From Tenrec ecaudatus (taxonomy: Eukaryota > Chordata > Mammalia > Afrosoricida > Tenrecidae): a stretch of DNA of 64,000 nucleotides. The notes under the pieces are model-generated. The model was not told where the DNA came from. It ran no database searches and saw only the letters and a list, made by a program, of their open reading frames with translations. Positions 1 to 56,574 of this stretch are shown here, in pieces (the stretch's first letter is position 1; every line of letters starts with the position of its first letter). The translations under genes were made by a program, and so were the position numbers. Where the stretch lies: the NCBI RefSeq assembly GCF_050624435.1, contig NC_134545.1:85154063-85218062 (forward strand). The letters are read 5' to 3'.

Positions 1-130
1 ACAGCAGCAGGGCTCCCTGGGGGACTGCCTGGCCCGCAGAAACTGGAGCCCTCAGAGACCCTGTGTGCTGCGCGCCGAATCCAGAGGCTGCCAGTCTACC
101 CAGAGGTGTCTGGGAAGAAACATGTGATTT

Positions 131-316
131 CTAAAACAAACTCACTGCCATCAAGCTCGTCGCGATCCTGCGGGGCCGAGGGGAACTGCTCCTGCGGGTT
201 CGGTGAAGATTGTCCATCTTTATGGGGGTGGAAAACCTCATCTTTCTCCCACCGAGGGGCTGGTGGCTTCGAACGGCTGACCTTCCAGTTAGCAGCCCAG
301 CACGTGCCACCGACGA
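131..316 (-). mobile_element. AfroSINE
   Basis: AACAAACTCACTGCCATCAA on the plus strand is the antisense 3' part; CGAACGGCTGACC and GTTAGCAGCCCAGCACGTGC are the antisense tRNA-derived head (box B and box A region). Confidence 0.75.
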
Positions 317-796
317 TCCTGTGGCACACACAAGGGGGAGTCACCAGGAGGGGGAGTCAACTTTGTAGCCACTCAACCTAACAACCTCCCAGATGGGATG
401 AGCCAGAATCTGAATTGCAATAAAGCGTAGACTGGAGTTTGAGAAGCGAGGCTCGGGGGAGAGGAAAATGAGCGAGCACGCATGTGCTTTAGTACCGGGT
501 CTCAGAGTGAGCGAGGAGTGGATGTGCGCGTGTGTCTTTCATCCAGGTGGTACGTACCACTGTAGGACTGTGAAACTGGGGGTCCCAGAAATGAGGTTCA
601 TCTGCCTAGGACCAAAGAAGGGTCCTGTGGAGGGGGTGGGTGGAAGGGGGCCTTGAACGGCTGCAGCAGGCTTCAATGGGCACCGGAGAGGACGCGGAGG
701 GAAGGGCCCAGGCAGAGGCAGGAGGGCGAGGGATGACTCATGAAGACAGGGGAGTCATGTGGAGCACTACGAGCGCATGGGAAAGAAGTGGTGACC

Positions 797-1293
797 TGTG
801 TTGGACAGGGTTCTCTAGAGAGACAAACCAGATTGCTAGTAATTATACACAAATATATTTATAAAGATAGATATATAATACAAGAAATGAACCGTTAAAT
901 TATATACAGATAGATAATACAAGAAATTAACAGTTAAATTATAAAGCAGTGTGACACTAGCAGTCCTTTAAGGCTTGAGAGCCGCCAGTGTCAGTCCCCT
1001 ACTGTAGAGAGAGCTGGGCTATATATCCCCAGGCAGCAAACAGCAAGGCAAGTCACCAACTGTCACCAACTGTCAGTCCCCAGCTCCAGAGATGAACATT
1101 CCAATCACGTGGGCTTGAAGGGACCTCACCTTACAGCGACACAGTCCACAGGCTAGGCATCCCACAGGTAGTGTACCCCTTTAAACTGAGGCACAGAACA
1201 AGCAAGGCGAGGCTCACCGAGCCATTTATTCCTCCGCCCTTCAATTAATCCTACTCGTATTTATCGGCCAGGCTGGCACAATAAACTATAGCA
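797..1293 (-). mobile_element. LTR-like element, family 1, with 5-bp TSD
   Basis: Starts TGTGTTGGACAGGGTTCTC and ends ACTATAGCA; flanked by perfect TGACC duplications (792-796 and 1294-1298). Same family as the copies at 21943, 28576, 38574 and 43335. TG..CA ends plus 5-bp TSD fit a solo LTR (ERV-L/MaLR type likely). No coding sequence. Confidence 0.8.
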
Positions 1294-1644
1294 TGACCCA
1301 AAAGAGACAACGAAGTGGGACACTGAGCGAGCGAGCTCAGGTCTAAGGCCGTGGGGACCCGAGAGTGTGACTGGGGGAGGGACCGTGAGGGAGTCTGCAT
1401 TTCTTCTTTCCTGCTCTGCTCCCTCACTCCCAGGCAGGTAAAGGTTTCAGGAAGGTGAGGAGAATCCCGGGCTGTTCTCCAGGACCACGAGGGCTACTGA
1501 TACAGCAAGCAGAGTGCAGGACGGATGGAGGAGGAGAGAGGAGGCAAGAGTAAGTACTTCTCAATTGAGACAGGAGGACTCCCTGGAGAACTTTGCTGCA
1601 TGCTGAGCACATGTGGGCTTCACAAGTGCTCATCCACCACCCCG

Positions 1645-1686
<42 letters not shown>
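1645..1686. repeat. (CA)n microsatellite
   Basis: About 20 uninterrupted CA units, directly adjoining the 3' edge of the SEC31B exon at 1686-1830. Confidence 0.95.
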
Positions 1687-1687
<1 letters not shown>

Positions 1688-1830
1688 CACTTAGAGTGAA
1701 TGAAACTCCTGCTGGCCTTCCAATCCATTTGGGGGGCTTTCTTCAGGGAAGGCATCACTGTCCATTGGGCCACCTGCTCTGGCCCCTGCAGCGGTGGGAG
1801 AGGCTGACTTTTGCTGAAGGAAGCGGAGAT
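1686..1830 (-). pseudogene. SEC31B: SEC31B exon with +1 frameshift, ending in a (GT)n tract
   Basis: Acceptor gccctcag, then ISASFSKSQPLPPLQGPEQV and AQWTVMPSLKK in frame. A run of six C (plus-strand G, 1731-1736) shifts the frame; the continuation PKWIGRPAGVSFTLSG is found in the next frame. The 3' end runs straight into a (GT)n repeat on the minus strand (plus strand CA, 1645-1686), so the original donor context is gone. Confidence 0.8.
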
Positions 1831-2369
1831 CTGAGGGCAAAAGGACACCTCTGTCACCAGCTGGAGCCAAGAATCGGCTGCAAACTCTGCCTGTGAATTC
1901 CTTTTCAGGGGAACCCTTGAGATACCGTGGCCTGGGAGAGCCAGACTCCCATATTCGGGCAGATAGGGCTGGGCCTGGGAATGAGAACGGCACTCCTATG
2001 CTGCGGGGAAGCTCCGCAGAGCCTCCTGCGACCAAGGTCAACAGCAGAGTGTGATACTGAAAAGGCCCAGGGGAGAGAGGGAGGCAAAACAATCCATCCT
2101 CCCGAAATCAGGGTCCAGCATGGAGGTCTGGGGCCCTTGAAAGCCTACACTACGGGGAACATCCAAGAACCCAAGTCAAGGTGGAGGCCTCCTCTGTAGT
2201 GGCATGGACCGACACACTCCAGGACAGCAGGCCCTGGAGCAAAGTGCAGGCCTCCTAAGCTCAGTCTGGTCTCCCAGTCCCCAACAACCTTCCTCTCTTC
2301 CCAGGTCGCATGTCCCTCTTTCTCCTGACAACAGAGTCCCTTCCAGCATTCCCATCAAGCCCTTCAAAC

Positions 2370-2519
2370 CTTGTCAGTGAGTCTCATCTGCTGGACTTCC
2401 CAGCTTCTACCCATCACAGAGTACAAACTGATCCAGCCATCAAAGGAGGCGGCTGAGGACACCGGAGGGACCCGAGGGCACCCCTGCACATCAAAGCACC
2501 AACTGCTCTGGCTTGGTAG
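2370..2519 (-). pseudogene. SEC31B: SEC31B WD-repeat exon, intact frame
   Basis: Fifty codons: [50 protein letters not shown]. Acceptor tatttaag, donor AAG|gtttga. The WD-repeat Trp of FDVQW is Gly here. Otherwise it is close to the human exon and has no stop. Confidence 0.85.
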
Positions 2520-2604
2520 CTTAAATACAACCCAATATGGAGGAATGGAACCACGCAGTCCCAGAAATCCCAAAGACCCAGCTGCAGCAAAGAAACCAGA
2601 TGTC

Positions 2605-2905
2605 TCCCTTCACCCACTTGTCTGCTGTCAATCTCCCACGGAGGAGCTTATATGTAGATCCTTGTAATTGGTTCCCCCTTTCTACCCCATCAGGGTGCAG
2701 GGCAGCAACAATGAAACATATAACTTTCCTCTAGTTCCTAAATGTTTCCTCCCCCGCCCCACTATCATGATCCCAATTCTACCTTACAAATCTGGATAGA
2801 CCAGAGGATGTACACTGGTGCAGATAGGAAGTGGAAACACAGGGAATCCAGGGCGGATGATCCCTTCAGGACCAGTGGCAAGAGTGGCAATACCGGGAGG
2901 ATGAA
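2605..2905. mobile_element. Family A fragment with internal inversion, SEC31B intron
   Basis: 2605-2690 reads as the minus strand of family A (TCTCCCTTCACCCACTTGTC, ATATGTAGATCCTTGTAA). From about 2690 it switches to the plus-strand form (CAGGGTGCAGGGCAGCAACA, AACTTTCCTCTAGTTCCTAA) up to about 2905. This resembles the 5' inversion produced by twin priming in L1 retrotransposition. Confidence 0.65.
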
Positions 2906-3365
2906 GGGAAGTTTCTCTTCATAAGGGGGAGATTCGGAGGAAGACACCTCATCACTCAAGGAAATGAGCATTATCCTTGTGCTAAGAAATTTGATAAGGA
3001 ATATGAGGAGGCTGTGATGAGGAATGTGATGATGTGCAAGGTGATAAAGAAGTTGGAATTGTTCTGGGTGAAATTGTTCTCAGTTTTCAATAAGAACAGA
3101 AGAAAACAGGGTGACCCCAAGCTTGTGTCAAGGTCAGCTTAACTGCGAAAATAAAATGCTCCGCTTCTGTGCCCTACAGCTTTTCAGAAAAAACCACATG
3201 CTGGTACAAGCGAAAAGATAGTGCAAAGTACCGCATTCTTTCTGTGTGATCCAAGATAAAAAAAGCTTGTCCCCAGCCTCAGCTTGGAGTCCACACCTGG
3301 CACTCAACAGAGTCTCCTGTGGTCTCTCAGCACTGAGTCTGGGGAGGGCCTTGAAAAGGGGTGGG

Positions 3366-3496
3366 GCTGTGGCTCTCCAGCTCTGTCAGGGGTGAGGCGG
3401 CAAAATCCCACAGTGGATCACTGGAAGACGATCATCCTCTAGCACAGCACCAGCTGGGTGGCTGTCTGGGTGCCAGGCCAGGCCTGAGCAGTGCAT
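3366..3496 (-). pseudogene. SEC31B: SEC31B exon with several indels
   Basis: Starts after acceptor ttgttcccag with ATGCACTGCTCAGGCCTG (MHCSGLAWHPD), as in human. It then loses bases within the ATQLVLC block and before EDDRLPVI (these two roughly compensate), then loses more around IQLWDLRF. The block ends ELESHS at about 3366, where no GT donor is seen. Confidence 0.75.
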
Positions 3497-3759
3497 CTGG
3501 GAACAAAACAGACCCCAACAGGTGATGTCACCGACTTCCTTGGTGCTGCACCTCTCCTGCCCTGGGAGATGGGACCTTCTGTGTGACTGAGCACAGCACA
3601 GCCCTCAGGGCACAGCGACAATGGCTCTGTTAACAATGGGATGGCTGGAGCCTTACATCACCTTTGTTCACTTCCACTCTCCACAGGACACCTGGGGCAG
3701 GGAAAAGTCGCTCCCTCGGCGAGGCCTGGGCAGCCTGTGTTCTGGCCTCTGCTACACAC

Positions 3760-3921
3760 CCTGTTGTTGTGATCACTGACTGTGATGATCAGTTCCTTCT
3801 TCCTGAGGTCCCACACAACTGCCTTGCCACTGGGATGAGCAGAAGACAGAATGTGCTGGACTCGCCGGTTCCAAGAGAGTGCCCAGATGTCTTCTGGGGG
3901 CTGCGGAGGCAGCATGGGAGC
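3760..3921 (-). pseudogene. SEC31B: SEC31B WD-repeat exon, intact frame
   Basis: Fifty-four codons in frame, including [40 protein letters not shown] and TVSDHNNR, nearly identical to human SEC31B. Flanked by acceptor ttctcccag and donor AGG|gtgtgt. It is the best-preserved exon of the locus and anchors the identification. Confidence 0.88.
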
Positions 3922-4790
3922 CTGGGAGAACAACTTGTCACCCTCTGGGCCGTGGGGCATCCCTGTCCCACTGCTCCCAACCAAGCACAGAAAACCCAAG
4001 GGCAGAGGTGGGCTACCCAAATGAGCAGAGTCTCAGGGAGTGCGGGCACCAGGCTTCAGGGAGGATCCGGTAGACTACTGAGGTCGAGGCTGAGGGAGTC
4101 AAAGCATTTGGGGTTTTACCCTGACCCTACCCCAGCTGCTGCTGAGAGGATACAGTTAAGATGAGAAAACAGCCCTCCTGTTTTCTCTGACCAAGAGGGG
4201 GTTGAAAATAAGAAAGATGGGCATATGTGTGGTAGGGGCAGAGACACCCAAGAAGCTCCTGAGAGAGTGAGGTGGAAAGAGGAACCTGCTACATTCAGGG
4301 CACACGGGCTATCAAACGCAGAGTCAGCTTCCCTCCCGACTCTGTCGCTAGAAGACTGGGAATGTCAGAGAGCATAGAGATGGACCCAGGCGGGCTGACA
4401 GGCACACGCAGAGACAGAACGCACACCTGACCCCCAATCCGCTGGCTAGCTCCTACAGAAAAGGAACTATCTGGGTGTCCCACTCTTGTTCCGCCTCTGC
4501 TGAGTCTAGGGCCCTCCCCAACCCTACTCTGACACAGCGCATGCCCACTCTTCCCTAACATCTTGGACTTTTTCCATTTTCCTCCCAGAAGCCCCAGGAG
4601 AGTTACTGAGGGCACACCAAGCCCCCTTCCCACCCTCTTCCCCAAGCCTGCCACTGCTCTGGCCAGTGGAGCTCTATTGCCCTCCAGTGGTGCCGCCTGG
4701 TACTGCCTGCGCTCGGCCTGGGCCCCCGAACCAGAGACTAATCCAGGAAATGAGCTTGCACGCTGTCCGCAGCAGCTCAGGGAGGCTCAC

Positions 4791-4886
4791 CTGTGACTTG
4801 GATCCTGCGGTCATTGGCACACTCGGGTTATTCAAATCTCAAATGAAGATTTCAGAATCACTGGCCCCTGAGGCCAGGAAGGTGAC
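4791..4886 (-). pseudogene. SEC31B: SEC31B WD-repeat exon with TGA for Trp
   Basis: Acceptor cttcatacag and donor CAG|gtgagc are both good. The frame reads [15 protein letters not shown], stop, DLNNPSVPMTAGSKSQ. Human has ...[23 protein letters not shown]..., so the stop (TGA, minus strand 4841-4839) replaces the TGG of the WD-repeat tryptophan. Everything after the stop stays in frame, so a single base change is enough. Confidence 0.85.
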
Positions 4887-5087
4887 CTGTATGAAGAACA
4901 GGCGTATGGAGACAACCCCGCCAAGAAGAGACAAAAGCAGGGAAGAAAGAAAGAGGCCCACTTTGGAGGCGTTCCAAGCGGGCCTTGTGACCTCCCAGGG
5001 CAGGTGCACAGTGGCAGAGCAGCGAATGCTTCCATCCACACCTGTCACTCGCGGTGTGGCCAAGCCCGACCCACAGGAATGCAATAC

Positions 5088-5286
5088 CTGGAAACGGTTA
5101 AAGTCGAGGGCTGGGACAGCGCCACTGTGTCCTGCCTCTGCACAATCGCAGGCTCCTTCCCCGAGAGCGCGTGGGCCACACGGTACATAGTGAGCAGCCG
5201 TCCTCCCCGCCGCCTTCCTTCCCTAGGTCCCGCCGCCAGGACCTTCCCCAGGTCTACTGCCAGAGGTCCCCCAGAGGAGCTTGCGG
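5088..5286 (-). pseudogene. SEC31B: SEC31B exon with multiple frameshifts
   Basis: Pieces of the human block FHKLIWGSFGSG...LTLYNVTHILSSGKEP...ALDFNPFQ are found in different frames. KLLWG-SGS near 5250-5285 runs into an in-frame TAG. LTMYRVAHALSGKEP at about 5140-5200 is in another frame, and ALDFNRFQ just before the donor (CAG|gtattg at 5088) is in a third register, about one base short. At least two independent small indels plus a stop are needed to explain it. This is the most decayed of the recognised exons. Confidence 0.75.
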
Positions 5287-5504
5287 AGCAGACAAAGAGA
5301 AGGAACTGGCACCGTGCCTCCTCAGGTTCCCCCTCCCCCATCAGTAAGCAGTGGGAGTGGGGCATCTCGGCCAGTTTATTCAGGCATCCCCACCCCTAGC
5401 AAGGGGCTACCTGTCTCCCTGGTGTCCCGCCCTTTCTCTGGAATACTCTTCCAGTTCTACAGCACAGGCAGCCTCAAGGCCCGTGCCTCAGTTGTATGGG
5501 TGTG

Positions 5505-5532
5505 GCAGGGCAGGGCAGGGCAGGGCAGGGAG
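5505..5532. repeat. GCAGG pentanucleotide repeat
   Basis: About five units of GGCAG/GCAGG in a SEC31B intron. Confidence 0.9.
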
Positions 5533-5639
5533 AGGGGCTGCTTTGGGAGTTAGCATTGTTGGGTTTACAGGGGCCAGGCTCTGTGGTCAAGACTTCAAGA
5601 ATATTACTCCACTTACTAATCCTCCCAACTCAAATGCAA

Positions 5640-5870
5640 GGCAGGTTAGGATAGGTTTGTGTCAACTTGGCCGGACTAGGATTCCCTGTGGTTTGGCCAT
5701 CGCCTAGTCATCTCCCCTTGGGGGGACCTCCCGATGTCACCGCTCCTGAGGGCTCTGCTGGGAGCAGTCAACAGCTGTAAGAAGATTAGTGCAGATGGGG
5801 CCAACCCTCTGGCTCAGGTCGCAGTCCTGATGCAGCTGAAAGCATTCAGAGGGGCTGTCCAAACAGGCAC
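5640..5870 (+). mobile_element. Old LTR-like fragment
   Basis: GGTTTGTGTCAACTTGGCC ... resembles the 5' part of the LTR-like family (GTGCCAACCTGGC in younger copies), strongly diverged and incomplete. No TSD assigned. Confidence 0.4.
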
Positions 5871-8034
5871 CGCCAGTCTCTGACACGAAAGAAAATCCCT
5901 AACTTGGGCCCCTGCAGACAAGTTGGGGTGGTCTGCGTAGGGCCGAGCCCTGAAGCCTCACAGGTGGTAGCTAAGCCGTCCCAATGCTAAGCACAGCTGC
6001 TAGCCCAGGGCATTGCCCCAGCAACCCAGAGAGGCCTGACTCACATCACCTGAGGGCACGGAGCCCTACTGAAGGCTGCATCACAGTGTGCCCATGCCTG
6101 GGATCAGTGGGCAAAGTTACCGAGCAGACTGGGTGACAGGACCGGGCCCCGGCTGCCCAGTGGTTAGACCAGAGCCAGCCCGTTAGAAGTGAAGAGCTGA
6201 GCACTCCTTCCAACCAGGTCAGTAGAGTGGACACAAGGACGGCTGGAGCTGCTGCCAGATCGGCCATGTTGTCAGAAGCATGTGCTCCGCCCTGGCTCCA
6301 GAGGCTGCCACGCCACCCAGGGACTAGAGCGTGCATGGGCAGAGGGCAGGTCAACAGTCACGGGAGAAGCCCACATTGCTCACGCAGGATACAGAGAGAG
6401 GGAGGTCGTCGATGAGAAAGTCACACAGAATGGCAGTAGGGGCACGGTGGCACACTGTGGGCAGAGTATATGGCATCCAGCCTGGGGGCCTGACCATCAA
6501 GGCCAGCTAACATCACAGGGCTTGCCAAGGAGAAGCAGTTCCCACTAACTCACTTTAGGGGTGAGGTGTGGGATCGGCACGGCCCACGAATGATGCCGTC
6601 AATCTCCAAATGGCCCCTGGCGGAGAAGAGGTTCCCCACCCCTGCTCTGCAGCAGCAAGTCTTGGGAGTGAGAAAATGTTTCTGCTTGGTGGCATCCCTT
6701 CCACAGACACCCGGAGGACGGTGGAAACGCTCCCTCGGGAGCTAGAGGTGAGATAAAGACACAGGAAGGCAGATCACTGACAGGCCTGTCCCTAGGATGG
6801 GTCAGACAGGTGTTATGGAAAGCCACGCAAGAGATCCAGAATCCCAATGGAGACAGGAGGTAGAGGGCACCAAATTGCAGGTTGACCTCTGACCCTTGGG
6901 TTCTAAGAAGCCCAGAAGCTCTGGCCCAAAAGACCAATGACATTAGCAAGGCAGCATTTCCTGACGACCTTTCCTCCAGTGATGCTCATCTGACAAACCA
7001 AACATCACTTGCTTCACGAATCCCTATGGAGTCTGACTGCGCCCAGTGTCCCTTAAATGTGCACCTCCTTCGGTTATGTTCTATGCCCAGTTGGGCTCAC
7101 AATTTTGCGCATCGAGTCGGCTATTTCGTGACTGATGCTATTTCCCTGAAGCATCGTGGAGCGAGGGCAAAGGGAACTTTAGGGTCCAAATTTGGTTAAG
7201 GCATGAGTCTGCTGAAAAGGCAGGAAGAGGAAGGGAGACGGCTTTGAAAAGCATAGGTGAAGTTAGTAATGCAAAGGCAAAGGGAAGAGGGAAAGGATAC
7301 AAGAAGGACGGAGGAACAGCTGAAAAGAGAAAGAGGAGGCTGAACAGAAGGGCGCCGAAGGGCCTTTCGAGTCACCTTGCACAACCCCGTCTTTGTGCAG
7401 AAAAGAGAAAGCCCCAGACCACTGACAAATGCAAGTTAGCTCAGCCACACATCTTAGGCGTGTTCTGGACCCGCACCTGTGCTTTCTAGTGTGCCATGGC
7501 GAAGACCAAACAGATAAAGGAGAGAGAGGGGAGTAGCTTTGAAGACCCGGTTAGTTTCCATCAATTGGTTGTGTTACTAACTTTCAAGTCAACTATTTAA
7601 CCCAAGTGGGAATAGACAGTGAGAAAAATAGGAAGAGAGAAAAGTGAGTTCATTCGACCCTGGCTGTGTCTAGATGACTTCTTCCAAAAGCCCCCGCGGA
7701 AGCACTGGCAAAGGGGATTCCTTAGCTCTTTGGAAATTAACACAAATTGGTTGGAGAAAGAAAAGTAGAGAAGAAACAGTGAGCTCTGTGTGTTTTATTT
7801 TGTCTCCAGCCCCAGGTACCTGCAGTTTAGAACCAGAGTGCGAGGGGAAGAGTTGATGACTTCCACATTCAGTACCAACATTTCAAAAGGTCCCTTTGAC
7901 TTTGTTGACTCCAAAGCAGACAGTCTCCCTTCAAAGGCTCTGAAGACATTAAGACTGACTTGACCGTAGCTAACTGAAGTGTTGACTATGAACACCTGCT
8001 CTTTGGTTTAGGAAGCCAGAAGTGTTTACTCTCA
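5870..8034. other. SEC31B intron, no gene recognised
   Basis: About 2.2 kb of intronic sequence with only short chance ORFs. I recognise no young repeat and no additional exon here. Confidence 0.5.
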
Positions 8035-8160
8035 CTTACCCATTCAGCAAATATCTGCTTAGCACTCACCATAAACCAGGCACTCAAATAGGTATTGGCG
8101 ATACAGCATTGAAGGGGCACAAAGAAGCAAAATGCTGTCCATGCGGATCGCAGAATTCCG
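8035..8160 (+). repeat. L2-like ancient repeat
   Basis: TTCAGCAAATATCTGCTTAG, CAGGCACTCAAATAGGTATT and GATACAGCATTGAAGGGGC match the conserved L2 3' region of mammals. In a SEC31B intron. Confidence 0.55.
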
Positions 8161-8848
8161 TTCCAAGAAATAGGCTGTCCGTTTCTTAAGAAGCCTTAGT
8201 GCCGTGTTGTTCACTACTGTGCTGGAGCTGGGGCTTAGCTGGTTGTGGATGAGAGCCTGGGCCCACTGTCCCCTTTCCAAGGAGGAGAATCATTGCTGAA
8301 TCGGCCCGTCCCTTTCAGAGACCCATTCGCAATGCACACTTGGGGGCTGGGAAGATTTGTCATTGTTGTGGTTGGTAAATCCTTGAGGGTCTGCTCTTTA
8401 GAGAGCACGAGTCTTGGAAACACAAAGAGATATAACAAGCTGAAAAATATGAGATACTTTCATAAATTGATAAATGCTGGCCAGAAAGGGGAGGGTGATG
8501 GGTCTTAAGGTTATTTCAAGTGAAGGGCTCAAGAAAGGGAGAAGAATCATCCTTGGGTTAAATTGTGAAAAAGGGGCACTTCAGTCTAAAGAATCTCAGA
8601 TAGACCAAGAAGTGCACCGGGGGCTCATCAATCATCAAGATAGGGAGCTGCGATCTAGACTGGCGATTTCTGGAGTGTGTGGAGAAGCCCATTCACCACT
8701 CCGTGAGAGAGGGAGAGCTACCTCATTCTATTTTTCTAAAAAAGATAGAAATTGTACTTTATGACTAAGATGATGTGGTAACACGTGTACATTCTTTACA
8801 TAGAATAGGTAACCTAAGTAAAGTGAATTTCACCTTTTCCCCAATGAC

Positions 8849-9061
8849 TAAGGTGACCAGATGTCCCGCTTTTGGCGGGACAGTCCCGATTTTTAACAAT
8901 TTTTCACGTGTCCCGCGGCACGTTTTAAAAGTCCCGATTTTTGGAAAGAATGCACGACAAGCCAGGGTATATGGTTTGGGGCTGCCGTGTGGCTATTTCA
9001 CCAGGATATTAGTTTTATCAGTGGTGTCCCGCTTTACCAATGTTAAAATCTGGTCACCTTA
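8849..9061. mobile_element. Short hAT-type MITE with perfect TIR and TSD
   Basis: 213 bp with 14-bp perfect terminal inverted repeats (TAAGGTGACCAGAT / ATCTGGTCACCTTA) and perfect 8-bp TSDs CCAATGAC at 8841-8848 and 9062-9069. The interior repeats the motif GTCCCG several times. The 8-bp TSD places it in the hAT superfamily; it is not SPIN (different termini). No coding capacity. Confidence 0.9.
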
Positions 9062-9460
9062 CCAATGACACAAAAATGTGGAGACAACTGGAAATTTATG
9101 AGTATTCGATCGGTGTGTGGCATCAGTGAGGGGGGATCATTGGCGAAAAGGGGAGTATTGTGCCAGGTTGTGATCCTCACCAGAGCCAGGGGAGAACAGT
9201 GCCAACACCTCTGGGTTCAAGGTGGTCAGGTCCACATGGTTCTGGACTTGCGTGATATCTATCCTGTGCTTTCTGCTAGACACCGCAGTCGCTGGTGGTC
9301 AGAACGGCGAAGGTGGCTGTGTTTTAAATTATTTTTCAAGTTAAACCCAGAGTTCACGACTCTACAACTTAGCCAGTTCCCTTCTCCTCTCCTCCCTCCG
9401 AGCCCTGAGTGGACACAGTCACTCCAAGAGCCACACCTCCGTGTGGTTCAGACACAGTGC

Positions 9461-9579
9461 CTACTGGAGGCAGAAAGGACTCCCCTGCATTTCAGGTCCA
9501 GAGAGGGGCCCCTGAAATCGACCTCAAAGATTTCCAATGTGCTGGCTGTGATACAGGAGGCATCTGGCTGCTGCGCAGA
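9461..9579 (-). pseudogene. SEC31B: SEC31B exon, first WD-repeat strand
   Basis: Reads [20 protein letters not shown] then [20 protein letters not shown], matching the human block [40 protein letters not shown]. The frame is open. I see no AG immediately before the expected start: a pyrimidine-rich stretch is followed by cccgggaaat. The expected donor reads AG|gc, not AG|gt. Both splice sites are therefore doubtful. Confidence 0.75.
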
Positions 9580-9652
9580 ATTTCCCGGGCATGAGAGAAG
9601 TCCAGAAGAGGCAGCATATGACCAACAGTCGGCTGGTGAATTTGGAGCGGAA

Positions 9653-9848
9653 CCGTGGTTCTGGACCTTCCTCATGCCGCGACCCTTGAATCCAGTTCCT
9701 CATGTGTCAGTGACCCCTCAACCATAACATTATTTTCGTTGCTCCTCCATCACTGTCATTTTGCTACTGTGATGAATCGGGCAACCCCCATGGTGAAAGG
9801 GTCCTTCGATCTCTAAAGGGGTCGTGACCCACAGGTTGAGAACCTCTG
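9653..9848. mobile_element. SPIN (hAT) copy in SEC31B intron
   Basis: CCGTGGTTCT ... GGTTGAGAACCTCTG with the same interior as the other two SPIN copies. The TSD is not recognisable, so it is older or its ends are damaged. It sits about 70 bp upstream (in minus-strand sense) of the 9461-9579 SEC31B exon, where it may contribute to the missing acceptor context. Confidence 0.88.
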
Positions 9849-10132
9849 GGTTAGGAGCTAGAGAGGAGGGCAAATGAGAAAAGGCCTAGCATATACCCTT
9901 TCTCAAATGGTAACTCCAGAGAAACCAAGAAAGCACGAGGCGACTGGCCTTGATCCATATTCCAAGGCCACCCCCGGGTGCCCAAAATACCTAACGCAAC
10001 CCTGCTTATGCCACCAGCCATCTCCCACACTCCTCTGAGCCTACAGCTTTCTCCAATGCTCCCCAGACACTTCTAGCTATGACGTTTCACCTCACCTAGG
10101 TACTTCCAGAGGATCCTGCTCCCCGTTCTCAC

Positions 10133-10216
10133 CGTCCCTGTGGCCAGATACACAGGGTACTGGTTAGCCGGACTCCACACTTGGATGGCAGGCCGCACAA
10201 CTCCCTGCAGCTTCAT
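10133..10216 (-). pseudogene. SEC31B: SEC31B start-codon exon
   Basis: Twenty-eight codons reading [20 protein letters not shown] then PVYLATGT, close to the human SEC31B N-terminus ([20 protein letters not shown]...). The exon ends in ACG followed by a good donor (gtgaga). By itself it looks intact. The acceptor upstream of the ATG (about 10232) has a poor pyrimidine tract. Confidence 0.8.
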
Positions 10217-12390: not shown

Positions 12391-12949
12391 GTAGTGCAGC
12401 GAGCAGAGGAACAGGTGTGTTCCATTAATCCTGCCCCCTTAAGCCCCATATTGTATGGTTCAAATCCTACATTTCATAATAAAACGTCCGAAATGTTCTT
12501 TGCTTCTGCATGCTCCCAGGAACGAAAACAAAAATAAAGCAAAGCAGAAAATAATTGGGTCACGAAAGAGCTCATCCGTAAGGTGGTTTCCAACCTGAAG
12601 AACAGGACGCTAAGGCTCATAATTGAGCCCAGCCTCTGAAAATAGTGCTGGGGGCGGAGTGGGTACATCAGGTGTTCGCTGACGGGCCTCACCGCCAACT
12701 CTGCAGTCACCAGTGCCACCTGCTGGTCACAGCCATTTTGACGGGGGGGGGGGGGGAGTGGGGCAGCGGGGTAGGAGACCAAACCAAAATAAAGGTTCCG
12801 GTTCGCAGGCACGCACTTTAACCACTGCGTCACCAGAGTGCTTTCAGAACCCCTCATCGCGAAAGCAGGAGCTGCGGTCTGCACCGCGCATCTGCCTTGT
12901 TTCACGTCTCTAAGGGGTCAGTGTTACTGTTTGTTTCCATTGTGGGGAC

Positions 12950-13650
12950 AAGAAATGGACCCGGCGGGGTTGCGAAGCCCCAGCAGCTTCCAGGGCCGGT
13001 ACCTGCAACCCTGCCGCCAGCCCACGCGGAATCCCATCAAGGGCCCAACTCGCTAGCGGTCCCGGGACTGGGAGGGCCAGCCCTTGATTCCGAGGCATTT
13101 GCGGTCACTAGAAGGACCCCCGCGGGGGCCCGGAAATCAAGGAGTGGCCAAAGGTGGGGGCGCGGGCGCGAGCAGAGCTGAACACACGGGCGCCCTGGGC
13201 GGCTTTTCTCGGGCCACCGCACCGCAGAGCTCGGCTCCAGGGGCAGTCCTGAGAAGCCAGGACGCGGGTGGCCCCGGGGACGGGGCGCACTCGGGCAGCG
13301 CCGAAGAGGAGCCCTCCTCGGGCAGGGAAAGGGAAATGGAGCCGGGTTCAAGGCCAGGCGGGCCAAGTAGGCCCTCGCCCCACCCCACCTAGGACCCACT
13401 GTGCCCTCGGGCAGGAACCACGCTACAGCTGCCCGGTGGCGCAGCACCGTCTCGGCCCAGGCCTGGGCTTCCGTTCTTGTTGGGGGGGGGGGGCTCAAGA
13501 CCCCCAAACAGGCGGGGACAACCAACCTCGGGGGTCAGGTGCGGTGAGCTGGGGATAGTCAAACCTGGCCCCAGCCTGCTGACCTCCGCCACCCATCTGC
13601 GCACCCCGTGGCGCGCGCGCGCACAAGGAGAGCTGGGACTGCGTCCTAGA
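12950..13650. promoter_or_regulatory. CpG island, former SEC31B promoter
   Basis: A GC-rich, CpG-dense stretch (many CGCG/GCGC runs, e.g. around 13190-13300 and 13605-13625) lies about 2.7 kb upstream of the SEC31B start-codon exon on its minus strand, where the untranslated first exon and promoter are expected. Short G runs at 12738-12753 and 13481-13492 flank or interrupt it. No confident ORF and no first-exon donor could be assigned. It might also serve some other transcript. Confidence 0.55.
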
Positions 13651-15078
13651 GGACACGTCCTCCTTGGAATGGGAATGTTCACTGAGTTGCTAACTTGTGG
13701 CGCAACGTGACAGATCCTGCGACCCGTAAATCCCGCTCCAGCCAATTTCAGCCTGGCCAGGGTGGGGATGGGTGACAGGCTCTGAAAGGGGAACGCACTA
13801 ATTCAATTATTTACTTATTGAAGCGGGAGATGACCCGGTGCAAGCCCCTGAAGCGCTCACTGGAACCCACTTAGTTGAAAAGGCAAGAAGCAAACGAAGC
13901 CGTAAGTTGCAGTGAGTGACTTTCTGGAAGGCTGCAGGAAGGGGAGGCAGGTGGCACTCCTGGGCGCTGCAAAGACAAGGCTGTGTTCCAGAGAGGGAGC
14001 CCCAGCCAGCTATCAGGTACCCTGGCAAGTGCCACACCATGAAACAGAGACTGCACCTGGGAGAATGGCTGAACATGACTGTGTTACTGAAACGCCTGCA
14101 GGGATGCGGACGCAGTGAGATAGTGACTGGGGGCCTGCAGCGTGAATCGCTCAGAGAGGGCAGAGCTGGAGACAGCGACTACAGAACTAGGAGCCAAATA
14201 GAACAACTCGGGTACCAAGCCATGAAAGCCTGCATTACTATAGCGGAGGTAAAAGTAGCAAGTTTGAGACTATTTCAACCTTGGACCTGAGAAGACTATG
14301 AAAACGGCTCTTATTAATAGAACTAGACAACTTGAAGAGATGGGGAGGTCATGTAAATTTACTTATTGTGTTGAGGGAATTGTAGCAGTCCTAAATAAAA
14401 ATCCCCGGTAGGCAGCTGAAGATCTTAGACCTATTTTAAACCTCCATTTAAGGCGTGAATTCTCTATCCCTACTTGGTAAGGTGCGTGTGTGTAGGGGTG
14501 AATCGGGACACAGGACAATTTGTTACTACTACCTGTGCCTGGCTCACCCTTCTTGTTCTTAGTAAGCGCTCAACAGCTTGTTTCTTGAACTTGCCGATAC
14601 CAAAACCTAAAGAACAGTGAAAACTAATTAGCCAACACCTAGAATTATCTAGACTGAGACTGACTGTGATGGAGTCCTCCAAGAAAAATTTGAACCGAAG
14701 GTGTGAAAGTCAACTTCAAGGAGGACATTCTCAAGTCACATCCTGTCACCTGGGTTTATAGCTGCGGGTCTAGGGAACTGCTGGAAGGCAATCACGGTGC
14801 CTTATTCAACCTTCCATCCCTAGGGCCTATCAGGGTCTGATATATACTAGGCACAGATGCTTGTAAATGCTTATCAAATGCTGCAGGACAGTGGTGACCT
14901 TCAGAGGGACAATACTCCGATTCCTCTGTGGTCTCTGTCACTGCTGGGACAACCATCAACGGGCCCACCATCAACTTGAACGGACTTGCTTCAAAGGCCA
15001 CATTGAGTGCACGTGGCGTTTTTCGTTAGTGGGACAGGTTTTCTAGCAGTATAAACTTTTAAGATGTTCCCCCCAAAG
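13650..15078. other. Intergenic SEC31B-NDUFB8, no gene recognised
   Basis: Unique-looking sequence between the SEC31B CpG island and the SPIN copy. A weak MIR-like piece may lie near 14815-14885. No coding signal seen. Confidence 0.5.
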
Positions 15079-15263
15079 CAGTGGTTCTCCACCTTCCTAA
15101 TGCCGGGACCCTTTAATACAGTTCATGTGGTGGTGACCCCCCAACTATAACATTATTTTCGTTGCTACTTCACCAGTCATTTTGCTGTCATGAATCACAC
15201 GACCCCTGTGAAAGGGTGATTCGACCCCCAAAGGGGTGGCAACCCACAGGTTGAGAACTGCTG
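15079..15263. mobile_element. SPIN (hAT) non-autonomous transposon
   Basis: Begins CAGTGGTTCT, ends AGAACTGCTG, with the SPIN interior (ACCCTTTAATACAGTTC, ATTTTCGTTGCTACTTCA, GAAAGGGT). Flanked by a near-perfect 8-bp target duplication, CCCCAAAG (15071-15078) and CCCGAAAG (15264-15271), as expected for hAT. Lies between SEC31B and NDUFB8. Confidence 0.92.
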
Positions 15264-16140: not shown

Positions 16141-16233
16141 TCATATCTCATAGTGAACCACTGGCTCGGGCTCTTTGGTGGGATCGCCGCCTCGTTCCAG
16201 GTACAGATCATTGTAAGGATACTGCTTTGGCCC
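16141..16233 (-). CDS. NDUFB8: NDUFB8 coding exon 5 with stop
   Basis: Acceptor tttcctcag. Encodes [20 protein letters not shown] and [10 protein letters not shown], then TGA at 16143-16141. The last residues match the conserved NDUFB8 C-terminus. Confidence 0.95.
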
Positions 16234-16418
16234 CTGAGGAAAAAAACACAGGTCAGCAAGAACGAAAGGCACCAGGTTAATACCTGGCTTCGCCCCACTC
16301 CAACAATCACACGTGGGAAATGGGTAGTGGTGCAGCAGCTTCGGGCTAGCCCCAGCTGGGCTGGAGTGGTAGCGGCAGCTTCCCTCTTCCCCACTCTGCC
16401 CAAGGGGGGGGGGGAGAG

Positions 16419-16477
<59 letters not shown>

Positions 16478-19418
16478 ACTCTCTCTCGCTTGTGAGAGAA
16501 GCGGTGCCTGTACGCCGGCCCTGCTCGTGAGAGAGTCAAAGCTTTCTAAATGAGAGGATGCATCCATCCATCCCACTCTCTCGGGGTCGAGACAGACTCA
16601 ATCTCCTTTAAGTCACTCAGCCTCTAATGGCACCAGCACTAAAGTGGCCTAGCAAATGAGGCGTGCAGGAGCGGCGGTGGGGGAAGCACAGAGGAGACAT
16701 GGCTGGGACGTGCTTTAGGGGCTGCTGACTTTACCAACAAACAGCTGTCAGAGAACACAGCTCAAGGGGAGGAGAAAGGGTGATGTGCTTACAGAACTGA
16801 AAAATGGAAGAGCCACACTGTGCTGCTTGCTCTCCTGAAGTGAAGTTAGTGCTCACACCACCCTGCGTGCCCTCTCCAGCCTGGAGCCCCTGGGGCTTGG
16901 TGGAAGGCTCGTGTCAGTGCACACAGGCGGACCAGCTACCATCAGGACATTGATTATCTCTGCAGAGGTAGCACTGGGCAACCAGCTGCAAACACAGCAG
17001 CGCCCTGCTTCAGTTCCTCTCCGTCCAATCCATCCTGTAGACTACTCCCAGATTAATCTTCCTAAAAACCCACCCTTCATGATGTCACTCTGTGGCTCAA
17101 ATACCCACAATAGCTCCCTGCTGCGCAGAGGAAAACCAACGCACCCCGTGTCGCTGGCCCCGTTAGCAGCCTGCGCCTGGTACATGGTAGGACCCCACAA
17201 ATACTTGCTGAGTTAGTGGGTACCACACCGTCCAGTCCAAAACCCTCAGCAGGTGATAAAAGCCACCGACGGAGCTGATCAGCTCACTGCCGATTTTTTT
17301 AAAACAGTGATTTCCAAACCCGCAAGGTGGCTTAAAAATATCCATTCTAAAACCCCACCAGAGTGACAGAATTAGAACCTCTATGGAATGGAGCCTAGGA
17401 ATCTGGATTTTTAACAGCTGGCTATCAAGGAAATATTTTATATACCTATTTCCACTCCATTGCGCTGTGGCAGCACGGCTCCTTATGCACTGAGCTGCTG
17501 ACCCCAAGGTCAGGAATTTGAAGCCATCAGTCACTCCACAGGGGAAAGATGAGGCTTTCCACTCGCCCAGAGTAACAGTCTGAGGGGCGGGTGGGCTGGT
17601 GCCGAGCAGTGGGCAGTGGGGGAGGGGAGTGTCTCGAAAACCCACAGGGCAGTTCTCCTCTGCCCTGTAGGGATGCTACACGTCCAAACAGACTCCATGG
17701 CAGGGAGCAGAGTTCTCCAACTCTGATTCATCACTCCCCTCCTTCCTTCTGTTCTCTCTTCCCCCACATGCTCTGTCTTCCTACATCCAAATTAAAAACA
17801 ACAAAAAAGGGAGGGGGGCCCTCAAAAAGTTTGGGGGAAATTCCATGATCTTTTCATCTCTTTTTTCCATGAACACTCTGAACCTCTTACGTAAGTGTGT
17901 GTCTATTGATAACACAACCCTTTAATAGCATTTCAATTCGCTTAGTACATACATATTCTCACACACATTATGCTACTCTGATACCTGTTCAAATATCGCT
18001 CATCATGTCATTTGATCTAAATTTTCTTAACCAAATTAAACTTCTTTAAGACCAGAGGATGTCCCTTACAGTCTCTAAAATTCTCTTGTCTGTTTAGAGT
18101 AGACAATTGCTTCCAGTCCCTAAAGGGACCTCAGAGGAGTCCTAGTCCACTAGGGACCGGAAGCAATTAAGTGCCCTTCACACCTGCAGCACAGGGTAAG
18201 GTTCAGTTCTCGATCCCTCAACCATGCGTAGAAAGATCACTTGCTGACACGTGTGTGAAGAGCACAGTGCCCAGATGGGAACACCTGAGACAAGCTGGCC
18301 CCCTCATTCTCCTTCTGTGTCTTCTCACGCAGCCAAATCCAAAGTGCAGGGGTGGAGCTGTACTCCACCAAAGGGGCACAGCCCTCCTATCTTGGTATTG
18401 GCTGGATTCCAGAGACTCCAGTCTTTTGGGAAATGGGGTGAAGCAAACATGCCTAAGGGGACCCTTCCCAGATACTCACCACTGGCTGGTAGCTGGGGTA
18501 CTTGTCTCCGACCCAGAACATGAACAGCATGAAGGCCACAAAACCGAAGAGATGCTTACACATGGTATCCCAAGAAACAGGCGTGGGGGATGTGTCCACA
18601 CGGTTCCGTATATACATGTCTAGGTCCCAGTGGAGCTAAGGCAAAATGGCAGAAAGCTATCAATACTACCCTTCCTGTAAAAGGTAGGCAGTCCAGAGTT
18701 ACCTACCAGAGGCTTGTACAACACTTGAGAGAGGCCTTCTACTGCCCTTGGATGTTATCCTGTGAGTCTTGACTCAGATATTGCAGCCCACAGAACTGGG
18801 GGCAAGCCTGTCTAGTCTCTGCTGATCAGAGAGCACTTAACCATGGAAACTCACAATACAAATTCCATTACTCCCAGAAGTCCTATTCTACATGCCACAC
18901 ACGAAACCTCAGGTGTCTGATCACTGCATCTTGAATGCTTGGGCAGAAAAGCTAAGTGTTACTTGGGCAACAGTTGTGGTCTGAACCAAAGAAAGTTGAC
19001 TCAGGAAGGCATTCTAGAGAAGTAAGGGCTGTTAAAGGGGCTATCATTCTCTCACCGGTTCACCCCAGTTCAACCTCAGGTCCGGGTGGTCCCAGGAGTA
19101 CCAAGGATCTCTCTCATGCTGTGAGCGGTCTGGAAGTTTCGGGTAGTCGCCATACCTAAGAGACAGCAAGCACGACTAGAAAGGGGCCCTTGGCAGCTTC
19201 AGACAATTCAGGCTCCTGTCAGAGATGAGAAACCAGGTGACAGAGGTAACTGTCTCACCTCAGGGCGATGGAAGTGGCTTCCTTCCAAATCCCAATCTCA
19301 AAAGTCCTAGTGACTCTATGCATGTGTCTGTCTACCCACAGAAACCAAATTATAATGAAAAGTTCAAGTCAAACTGAAACCCTAACATACATTTCCTTAC
19401 CTATTTGCAACAAAGCAG

Positions 19419-19450
<32 letters not shown>

Positions 19451-20927
19451 CGAGAATGTTAAGAGCTGAAAGTCATCCATCACTGATTATGGTCTTTAGT
19501 GAGAAAAAGAAAGTAAAGTTTAGGGTTTGCATTAGAAAAAAGTCAAATGATTTGGATTAGTAATCTAGACGATTAGAAAAGTCTTCTTTTTTCATTGTAC
19601 TCATGTTCCTCAACCACCAAGGCGCTCGCATAAATCCCTCTAATTTAAAGATCTAGTGGGATTGCTGCTAAGCAGGGTTTCCCCCCAGGATGCTCCTGTC
19701 CCCGACACAATTTTTTAAAAAAATGCAAACAGCAAACTAGGAAATGGTAACTAGACATGTGTCACCGAAAATGATTAGAAAACAAAACAAGAAAAATAGG
19801 AGCTGCTAAAAGCAAGATTAAGAGGGATGCTAGGACAGGAAATCAAGGCAATCGTTTCCGAAAATTAACCGAAGGGGTGTTCTGTGGAGATGGGTCGGGG
19901 AGGAAGGGGGAGGCATAACATCAGCTAGAGTAAGGGGCCGCCAGTTTAATCTAACAAATGTCATGATTTCCACAGCCCTAGAAAAACGTAGGTGGGGACG
20001 AGCAAATACATGTATACATACATCTACATATACGGTACATATACATATATCTTCTAAAAGGGCATACACACACGGAGACAGAGTACTCGATCTACAAATT
20101 AAGGTTCTCATGACAGGAGTCCAGCTCCGGGCTGGTCACGTGCCTGGATGACAGCACCTGAGCCCAGCAGATGCTCGATCTAAATGAAACTCGGCGCTCT
20201 CGATGGAGCCAAGGCAGGTTCCTGCTATCCCGGGGTCCCCCAGGGAGCCATTAAAACCTCGGTTTCCTCATTTGAGGAAACAGCCTGAGCCAAGGAGAAA
20301 ATTGAAGTCCTCGCAGCTGCAGCTGCTCACCCGCCCCCCTCCCACTGGGCCCCTCTGAGAAAAGCAGCCACATCATTGGGTCTGTGGGGTCCCAACAAGG
20401 ACCGCGGGGGGTGCAGGGGGGTCAGTCAATGCGCCCAGCCGCCTTCCTCCCACCACTACCCCGGGGCGTGCGGACCCTGTCTCACCCCGAGCCGTCCGGG
20501 TACGGTTCGTAATCCTCTACCCGCATGTTATACTTCTTAGCGGCGGCGGCCCGTTCTTCTGGCGTCTTGGGGTAGGCCCCCGGGAGCATGTCCTTGGTAA
20601 TGTGTGAGGCTGGAGCGCAGAACAGGGCAGGTCAGAAGCGCCTCGCTCCCGACGCCCAGGAGGCTTCCGCGGCAGGGAAGGCAGAGGCTAGACCGCCCTC
20701 CCTGCCCCGCCGGGCTTGCGGGAGCCGCGGGGGCCCTCCACCCCCTGCCCGGACACCAGCGTCGCCGTACCGCCCCCGCTCCCGGCATAGCAAACCTCAG
20801 GCACCCCTTTCCCACACTGAGAGCTCGCCAGTTCTCGCCGACCTGTCCGTGCGCCCAACGGCACCACGTTCCGGGCTGCCCTTTGCAGCCATCGCACTCC
20901 CAGGACCCCCGCCCTGGCCGCCGCCAT
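16141..20927 (-). CDS. NDUFB8: NDUFB8, complex I accessory subunit (5 coding exons)
   Basis: NADH dehydrogenase (ubiquinone) 1 beta subcomplex subunit 8, an accessory subunit of respiratory complex I in the inner mitochondrial membrane. Coding exons on the minus strand: 20843-20927, 20486-20609, 19056-19155, 18480-18635 and 16141-16233, total 558 bp, 185 aa plus stop. All introns have GT..AG and phases match. The protein starts [20 protein letters not shown] (basic, presequence-like), has the conserved [20 protein letters not shown] block, one membrane helix (about [14 protein letters not shown]) and ends EPVVHYEI. It is one residue shorter than the human protein (PYPDGSG against PYPDDGMG). 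Everything seen indicates a functional gene. Confidence 0.97.
16413..16473. repeat. (GA)n microsatellite, NDUFB8 intron 4
   Basis: A G run then about 30 GA units; (TC)n in the NDUFB8 transcript, about 180 bp upstream of exon 5, lengthening the pyrimidine-rich sequence there. Confidence 0.95.
17465..17715 (+). mobile_element. AfroSINE in NDUFB8 intron 4 (antisense to gene)
   Basis: Diverged head, then CTGCTGACCCCAAGGTCAGG, CACTCCACAGGGGAAAGATG and CCCACAGGGCAGTTCTCC. Contains a short insertion relative to other copies. Confidence 0.6.
18480..18635 (-). CDS. NDUFB8: NDUFB8 coding exon 4 (membrane helix)
   Basis: Acceptor gccttag, donor GTG|gtgagt; 52 codons. Contains the [17 protein letters not shown] segment and the single predicted transmembrane helix around [17 protein letters not shown]. 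The first residue is Leu where human has Met. Confidence 0.95.
19056..19155 (-). CDS. NDUFB8: NDUFB8 coding exon 3
   Basis: Acceptor ctcttag, donor CCG|gtgaga. Encodes [20 protein letters not shown] and [13 protein letters not shown], the most conserved block of the protein. Confidence 0.95.
19419..19447. repeat. (CA)n microsatellite, NDUFB8 intron 2
   Basis: About 14 CA units. Confidence 0.95.
20486..20609 (-). CDS. NDUFB8: NDUFB8 coding exon 2
   Basis: Acceptor gctccag, donor GG|gtgaga. Encodes [40 protein letters not shown] and S: the first part of the mature protein. One codon is missing relative to human near the 3' end. Confidence 0.95.
20843..20927 (-). CDS. NDUFB8: NDUFB8 coding exon 1
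   Basis: Encodes the first 28 codons plus one base, i.e. essentially the mitochondrial targeting presequence ([20 protein letters not shown] then VVPLGART). The ATG lies in context AAGATGG. Donor ACAG|gtcggc. Confidence 0.95.
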
Positions 20928-20951
20928 CTTCACCTTCTCCCCGGGTCGCCC

Positions 20952-20963
20952 CGCGCATGCGCG
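20952..20963. promoter_or_regulatory. Palindromic NRF-1-type site
   Basis: CGCGCATGCGCG contains the full NRF-1 consensus (YGCGCAYGCGCR) as a perfect palindrome, 25 bases upstream of the NDUFB8 ATG. NRF-1 is the known activator of many nuclear genes for respiratory-chain subunits. Binding is inferred from the motif only. Confidence 0.7.
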
Positions 20964-21169
20964 CACGCGGGCACGCAAGCACGCAAGCACGGCGGCCGAG
21001 CGGGGCCAAACCTCGGCGGGCAGCGCGGGGCCGAAAAGTGCTGGGACGTCCCGCCAGGGCGGGGCTTCGCGGCGCTGGAAGGCGGTGGGGCTGAGAGGGC
21101 GTGGGAGGGATGACACTTCAGGTTGTTGTGTCCCCACCTTTTTTTACACAGACCCCCCCCCTCAGCTGA

Positions 21170-21365
21170 TTTACACCCACCCAAGGAGGATCTGTCTCTA
21201 CCGTCCAGTCGGCCGGCCGTCGGGGCAGGGTGGCACGGCAGGGTTTGCGACTCTGCAAATCTTCCCTGGAGGAGAAAGTCCCATCTGCGTCCCGCCGAGC
21301 GGCTGGTGGTCTTGAACTGCCGGCCCTGCGGTGAGCAACCCAGCGCATCACCACCGCGCCATCGA
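21170..21365 (-). mobile_element. AfroSINE upstream of NDUFB8
   Basis: CGAGCGGCTGGTGGTCTTGA, CCCTGCGGTGAGCAACCCAG and CATCACCACCGCGCCATC are the antisense head. It abuts the upstream edge of the NDUFB8 CpG island and is itself CpG-rich. Confidence 0.65.

Positions 21366-47039: not shown

Positions 47040-56574
<9,535 letters not shown>

Follow-up and report, generated by a model that had tools for sequence, protein, structure and literature searches.

Has the COPII coat gene SEC31B been lost in the mammal from which the 64,000-nucleotide stretch of contig NC_134545.1 analyzed here (the window) was obtained? An initial annotation had called the SEC31B copy at this locus a unitary pseudogene beside two intact neighbors, NDUFB8 and HIF1AN. 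We conclude with high confidence that the remnant is the orthologous SEC31B, inactivated and then left to decay as a unitary pseudogene; the animal is likely an afrothere and plausibly a tenrec. The conclusion follows from several classes of lesion, an excess of change at residues that are otherwise invariant, the clean condition of the two neighboring genes, and the orthologous position of the remnant, all of which support the initial annotation.

The SEC31B remnant and its lesions

The reference for re-finding the gene was the Sec31B protein of the aardvark (Orycteropus afer; P0112, 1175 amino acids [aa]), and residues are numbered according to that protein. A part of human SEC31B served only as bait for fetching real orthologs; solved Sec31A and SEC31 chains were among its matches, and named Sec31B records from mammals were retrieved with it. 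We located the blocks by tblastn, three-frame reading, and frameshift-aware alignment against aardvark Sec31B, the comparison with a real ortholog that the initial annotation had proposed, and recovered both its ordered N-terminal blocks and their lesions. Eight blocks lie in order on the minus strand (10216..1683) with their introns retained, which rules out a processed pseudogene. Together, blocks A–F, H, and I correspond to aardvark aa 1–261 and 295–397 and total 1086 bases over 8.5 kb (Table 1).

By homology the remnant is SEC31B rather than SEC31A. Among the best 120 hits to its read-through translation, the closest listed proteins are SEC31B orthologs at 67–72% identity. Two of the listed best hits, from Prolemur (P0041) and pig (P0056), have the UniRef label "Sec31A" yet share 92% and 90% identity, respectively, with the query from human SEC31B. 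The remnant adjoins NDUFB8 and HIF1AN, as in the gene order WNT8B, SEC31B, NDUFB8, HIF1AN, upstream of PAX2, given in an excerpt of PMC2745767, and its position is judged orthologous on these two neighbors. A second copy may exist, in which case the remnant would be a dead duplicate with a functional SEC31B elsewhere in the genome. We consider this quite unlikely, however, as the broken copy has introns and occupies the orthologous place, and the best 120 hits to the read-through are all at most 72% identical, although a tenrec may simply be outside the database.

The nonsense codon is an in-frame TGA in exon D (4841..4839), where the TGG codon of the conserved Trp149 has become TGA. Seven frameshifting indels, counted from the frameshift-aware alignment as those that are not multiples of three, fall in exons C, F, and I, in agreement with the earlier claim of frameshifts in at least three exons, and five further indels are in frame. 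A one-base shift placed by the aligner at the start of exon D was left out of this count, as exon D already reads in an open frame from its AG acceptor when no shift is assumed. Within exon C, where the placing of indels is uncertain, they include a 1-base loss at Lys119, and a TAG is reached in the first frame. Exon F is shortened by three frameshifting deletions, one of 2 bases and two of 1 base, and by an in-frame deletion of 6 bases that removes two codons. Doubtful or missing splice sites had also been described initially, and five of the 14 that could be checked lack GT or AG: the B acceptor (AT), the B donor (CA; a split codon would make it GC), the C acceptor (TG), the F donor (AC), and the H acceptor (GG). 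The corresponding count in NDUFB8 and HIF1AN is 0 of 22 (Fisher p = 0.005).

The exon reported as missing is exon G (aa 262–294). In the 831-base pair (bp) interval where it is expected, the best score was 28; shuffled sequences averaged 26.3, and 29 of 100 reached that score. In the same test, exons A, C, and F scored 122, 132, and 154, values reached by 0/100, 0/40, and 0/40 shuffles, respectively. Exon C (aa 69–133, 5288..5088), the hardest to read, was rejected as a candidate for the missing exon; it is present though scrambled. In the 1645 bp past exon I, aa 398–837 were sought as 11 pieces of 40 aa, and the score of each piece was reached by at least 3 of 30 shuffles; the exons after I are either lost or beyond the window.

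As had been noted at the outset, NDUFB8 and HIF1AN have no defect in 13 exons. Their translations contain neither a stop nor a frameshift, and all 22 splice dinucleotides are canonical AG/GT. Both proteins align end to end with solved proteins of the same names, NDUFB8 being one codon short of the 186-aa chains.

Table 1. Features of the window at and around the SEC31B remnant (aa, aardvark Sec31B residues; o/e, observed/expected)
Feature	Position	Strand	Description
SEC31B exon A	10133..10216	-	aa 1–28, ATG to ...LATGT; open, GT donor
SEC31B exon B	9460..9579	-	aa 29–68; frame open; acceptor AT for AG, donor CA (or GC) for GT
SEC31B exon C	5088..5288	-	aa 69–133; acceptor TG, several indels, TAG in first frame; donor GT retained
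SEC31B exon D	4791..4886	-	aa 134–165; AG/GT retained; TGG to TGA at W149
SEC31B exon E	3760..3900	-	aa 167–213; open, AG/GT retained; codon Q166 gone at start
SEC31B exon F	3363..3496	-	aa 214–261; acceptor retained, donor AC; deletions
Expected place of SEC31B exon G	2532..3362	-	aa 262–294; no signal above chance
SEC31B exon H	2370..2531	-	aa 295–348; open; acceptor GG, donor GT retained; W311G and F319S at invariant sites
SEC31B exon I	1683..1830	-	aa 349–397; acceptor retained; 1-base insertion near K379; 3' end enters (GT)n repeat
Interval downstream of SEC31B exon I	1..1645	-	no SEC31B aa 398–837 above chance
DNA-transposon-like insertion	9654..9847	-	intron A–B, ~75 bp upstream of SEC31B exon B
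CpG-rich stretch	12751..13750		between SEC31B exon A and NDUFB8 3' end; GC 0.64–0.70, CpG o/e 0.66–0.73
NDUFB8	16141..20927	-	5 exons, 185 aa, intact (control)
HIF1AN	47116..56574	+	8 exons, 349 aa, intact (control)

Constraint, age, and possible products

To quantify constraint on the remnant, we hand-picked 49 Sec31B records, one per genus, from 187 fetched. Two of them are marked LOW QUALITY; the other 47 served as ordinary models, annotated though not all free of faults, that of the elephant lacking 15 residues (aa 349–363). Invariant sites were those alignable to the window, outside the scrambled aa 80–96, and unchanging in the other ordinary models, with each model left out in turn. The remnant is changed at 23 of 171 such residues, compared with 45 of 8064 pooled over the 47 ordinary models and a maximum of 4 in any one; with aa 80–96 kept, the count is 24 of 175. 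When five residues are trimmed off each exon end, the remnant is changed at 10 of 124 residues, compared with 35 of 5853 pooled and a maximum of 3 each (p = 2e-8; the p values are guides only, the species being related). Replacements away from the exon ends include W311G, F319S, D52G, R125P, and R385G. In a maximum-likelihood tree of the 49 models and the remnant, the terminal branch of the remnant (0.22) is the longest, the next being 0.10. Judging from these residues, purifying selection has been lost on the N-terminal part of the gene (aa 1–397).

Neutral rates of 2.2–4 x 10^-9 per site per year allow the decay to be dated roughly. If the replacements are neutral, the count of 23/171 corresponds to 0.060–0.066 changes per site, or 15–30 million years, and that of 24/175 to 15–31 million years. 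By hand arithmetic, the trimmed count gives ~0.035 changes per site, or 9–16 million years. Because this trimmed count is lower, we widen the range, so that the decay would be roughly 9–31 million years old.

Could splicing still rescue a product? Starting at the ATG, we translated nine exon joinings without correcting their frames. Six of these stop after 43–111 aa, the full series stopping after 89, and three stay free of stops throughout exon I: A-I (77 aa), A-E-I (124), and A-E-H-I (178). The stop-free joinings omit exons B–D and F–G, are out of frame past the exon I insertion, and lack most of the propeller, from which we infer that their products would be unable to fold into a Sec31 propeller. 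A working SEC31B that evolves fast or under relaxed constraint, with unusual splicing around its bad exons, could draw on the four exons that remain open (A, B, E, and H) and on the three stop-free joinings. Among internal exons, however, only D and E retain both splice sites, D holds the stop codon, and the stop-free joinings do without exons B–D and F–G and finish out of frame; we find this explanation barely credible. Upstream of exon A, the CpG-rich stretch is plausibly a remnant, aging SEC31B promoter island, and the NDUFB8 island (20501–21250) is richer in CpG (o/e 0.87–0.91 compared with 0.66–0.73). As the stretch persists where the SEC31B promoter is expected, some transcription of the dead gene may occur.

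Several points weigh against a unitary pseudogene. Exon ends were placed by hand from frame, homology, and GT/AG, so that the boundaries have no annotation behind them. Alignment is least certain near exon ends, and 13 of the 23 changed invariant residues are no more than five residues away from one; the excess shrinks on trimming, yet survives it. Four exons (A, B, E, and H) retain open frames and resemble those of the aardvark, which also argues against an old decay. Exons A, E, and I have usable splice sites, so that an A-E-I transcript, with 124 open codons, could conceivably be spliced. The exons for aa 398–1175 lie outside the window, and a product from an internal start could come from them. 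Finally, the case rests on the sequence of one assembly, and an excerpt of PMC11014510 cautions that a loss confined to a single tenrec assembly may be an error of that assembly.

The last two points each correspond to an alternative. If the lesions were artefacts of sequencing or assembly, SEC31B would be intact in the animal; a poor assembly alone could yield indel lesions, and assembly errors have been blamed for some tenrec-only losses (PMC11014510, same excerpt). Against this, the same stretch is free of defects in 13 neighboring exons and at their 22 splice dinucleotides, a whole exon is absent from 831 bp without an N, and invariant residues are replaced, at a frequency that remains high away from exon ends, which indel errors do not cause. 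As W311G, F319S, D52G, R125P, and R385G are replacements, they are not the product of indel-type sequencing error. We therefore reject sequencing error as a general cause, in accord with the initial annotation, which had thought poor sequence quality an unlikely one, and regard an artefact as very unlikely. Alternatively, the loss could be limited to the N-terminal propeller, with a shorter SEC31B (aa 398–1175) still made from another start. The lesion evidence covers the N-terminal third of SEC31B, the C-terminal exons lie beyond the window, and human SEC31B has odd splice forms, one of them C-terminally truncated, according to an excerpt of PMC9797344. That short human form, however, lacks the C-terminal part and would retain the very end that is broken here, and no remnant of aa 398–837 was found in the 1.6 kb downstream. 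We consider a shorter SEC31B quite unlikely.

For the unitary pseudogene that we favor, the following course of events is proposed. Having lost an exon, five splice sites, and its constraint, and carrying a nonsense codon and seven frameshifts, N-terminal SEC31B (aa 1–397) would no longer specify a working WD40 propeller, which the COPII cage needs. Inactivation may have occurred ~9–31 million years ago, and SEC31B would have been dispensable because SEC31A, its strongly and widely expressed paralog, supplies the Sec13–Sec31 outer coat. Transcription from the CpG-rich 5' region would be possible, presumably with truncated products.

Repeats are also present around the remnant. When up to 3 mismatches are allowed, the 18-base end of the insertion near exon B occurs at three places in the window (expected, 0.07), the other two being at 15241–15258 and 54809–54826. 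These repeats may belong to SPIN, a hAT family known from tenrec among Afrotheria, which would fit a tenrec origin. The insertion could have disturbed the splicing of exon B. Separately, the intron between exons B and C contains a ~213-bp element (8849–9061) with perfect 14-bp inverted ends, TAAGGTGACCAGAT and ATCTGGTCACCTTA, and resembles a non-autonomous DNA transposon. A full-length match to SNORA73, an H/ACA snoRNA family, lies within HIF1AN intron 2, at 51050–51248 on the plus strand (143 bits; gathering score 74), with no poly-A tail visible directly after it.

SEC31B in other Afrotheria

The tree described above places the remnant with aardvark, elephant, manatee, and sengi at ultrafast bootstrap values of 32–38; galago adjoins the group, and resolution is poor. 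Constraining an afrotherian clade costs nothing (log likelihood -4250.8 versus -4251.9). We also compared ten sites at which afrotheres differ from other mammals. The remnant has a common afrotherian residue at 11, 59, 76, and 376 and that of the aardvark at 254 and 372, and it lacks the commonest afrotherian residue at 40, 172, 359, and 384. No tenrec, golden-mole, or hyrax Sec31B name appears among the matches listed (the best 120 in each of three protein searches), which are cluster representatives only and could hide such a member.

Might SEC31B be failing in other afrotheres as well? Afrotherian entries named among the best 120 hits to aardvark Sec31B are those of the aardvark itself, the elephant (P0121, with the UniRef label Sec31A but 84% identical to aardvark Sec31B), the Amazonian manatee (Trichechus inunguis, P0123), and the sengi Rhynchocyon petersi (P0132). 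The manatee and sengi entries are the only ones of these 120 hits marked LOW QUALITY PROTEIN, in a listing that favors relatives of the query. In the Amazonian manatee, 12 of 170 invariant residues are changed and, after trimming, 10 of 123, a signal as strong as that of the remnant (p = 2e-8); over the full length, 21 of 350 are changed, compared with at most 10 of 350 in any ordinary model. The manatee model also lacks the single residues Gln228, Trp338, and Glu545 and the pair Tyr685-Val686. A single base change can turn a Gln, Trp, or Glu codon into a stop, and no X occurs in the collection (0/187 proteins), which suggests that these gaps may be masked stops; stop codons in manatee and sengi can accordingly be deduced only through missing residues. 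In the sengi, 8 of 170 residues are changed, 4 of 123 after trimming, 3 of 150 (p = 0.05) without aa 345–397, and 16 of 352 over the full length. The sengi changes cluster in aa 345–397, where a local fault of frame or model is probable, and the signal of SEC31B decay in this species is weak.

A further affected afrothere is the woolly mammoth, in which SEC31B is listed among 87 genes where a fixed large deletion, or a frameshift or stop/start-loss indel, affects an exon (PMC9382235, in excerpt). The mammoth change was inferred from ancient DNA (PMC9382235, same excerpt), whereas the remnant described here has many lesions. By the invariant-site measure, elephant (5/353) and aardvark (9/362, the third highest ordinary model) are not broken, which argues against a single loss in the afrotherian ancestor. 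Apart from the mammoth study (PMC9382235), our searches of the main texts in one open-access library gave no account of SEC31B loss in a tenrec or in Afrotheria, and "SEC31" is absent from the main text of PMC11014510 as far as it was available. We tentatively suggest, at slightly below an even chance, that SEC31B has been lost repeatedly across Afrotheria after an early relaxation of constraint in the clade: the gene would be dead here and probably so in the Amazonian manatee, damaged in the mammoth, and perhaps in the course of erosion in the sengi. As trimming made the manatee case firmer but the sengi case weaker, our estimate of repeated loss is unchanged by it.

SEC31B loss and the paired SEC31 genes

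Known unitary pseudogenes and lineage-specific losses in mammals, such as those of PCSK9, likewise concern a single gene that is present in most mammals and was broken in place with its introns kept and its neighbors intact, although the gene differs from that in the present case. The decay of SEC31B is a new instance of this familiar type of event and, as a genome feature, an ordinary gene loss.

Two Sec31 paralogs are found in vertebrates and in Arabidopsis alike, according to an excerpt of a 2023 review (PMC9797344). In Arabidopsis, one copy is lowly expressed, and SEC31A under the SEC31B promoter restores the fertility of SEC31B-null plants (PMC9797344). The highly expressed Arabidopsis copy is the one named SEC31B (PMC9797344), as opposed to SEC31A in the vertebrate case, and the plant and animal pairs probably arose separately. 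A zebrafish study proposes, though it does not prove, that in some tissues Sec31b compensates for the loss of Sec31a (PMC11463966, in excerpt). In yeast, the native disordered region can be replaced by that of human Sec31A but not by that of human Sec31B or Arabidopsis Sec31A (PMC7594496, in excerpt). The zebrafish and yeast data are compatible with the dispensability of SEC31B, without demonstrating it. The available excerpt of the 2023 review states that there are no published data on overlap between vertebrate SEC31A and SEC31B and that mouse models are unreported (PMC9797344).

The SEC31B remnant is in effect a natural knock-out of a little-understood gene, whose product is one version of a transport-vesicle coat protein that exists in two. 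If a wild mammal lineage lives without SEC31B, neither viability nor fertility can depend on the gene, and comparison of SEC31A expression across such species, in testis and in cerebellum, would test for compensation. Repeated afrotherian loss is a more interesting lead than a single loss, with the manatee as the next case. If it is true, Afrotheria would be a natural SEC31B knock-out series and would reveal which functions can do without the second COPII cage subunit.

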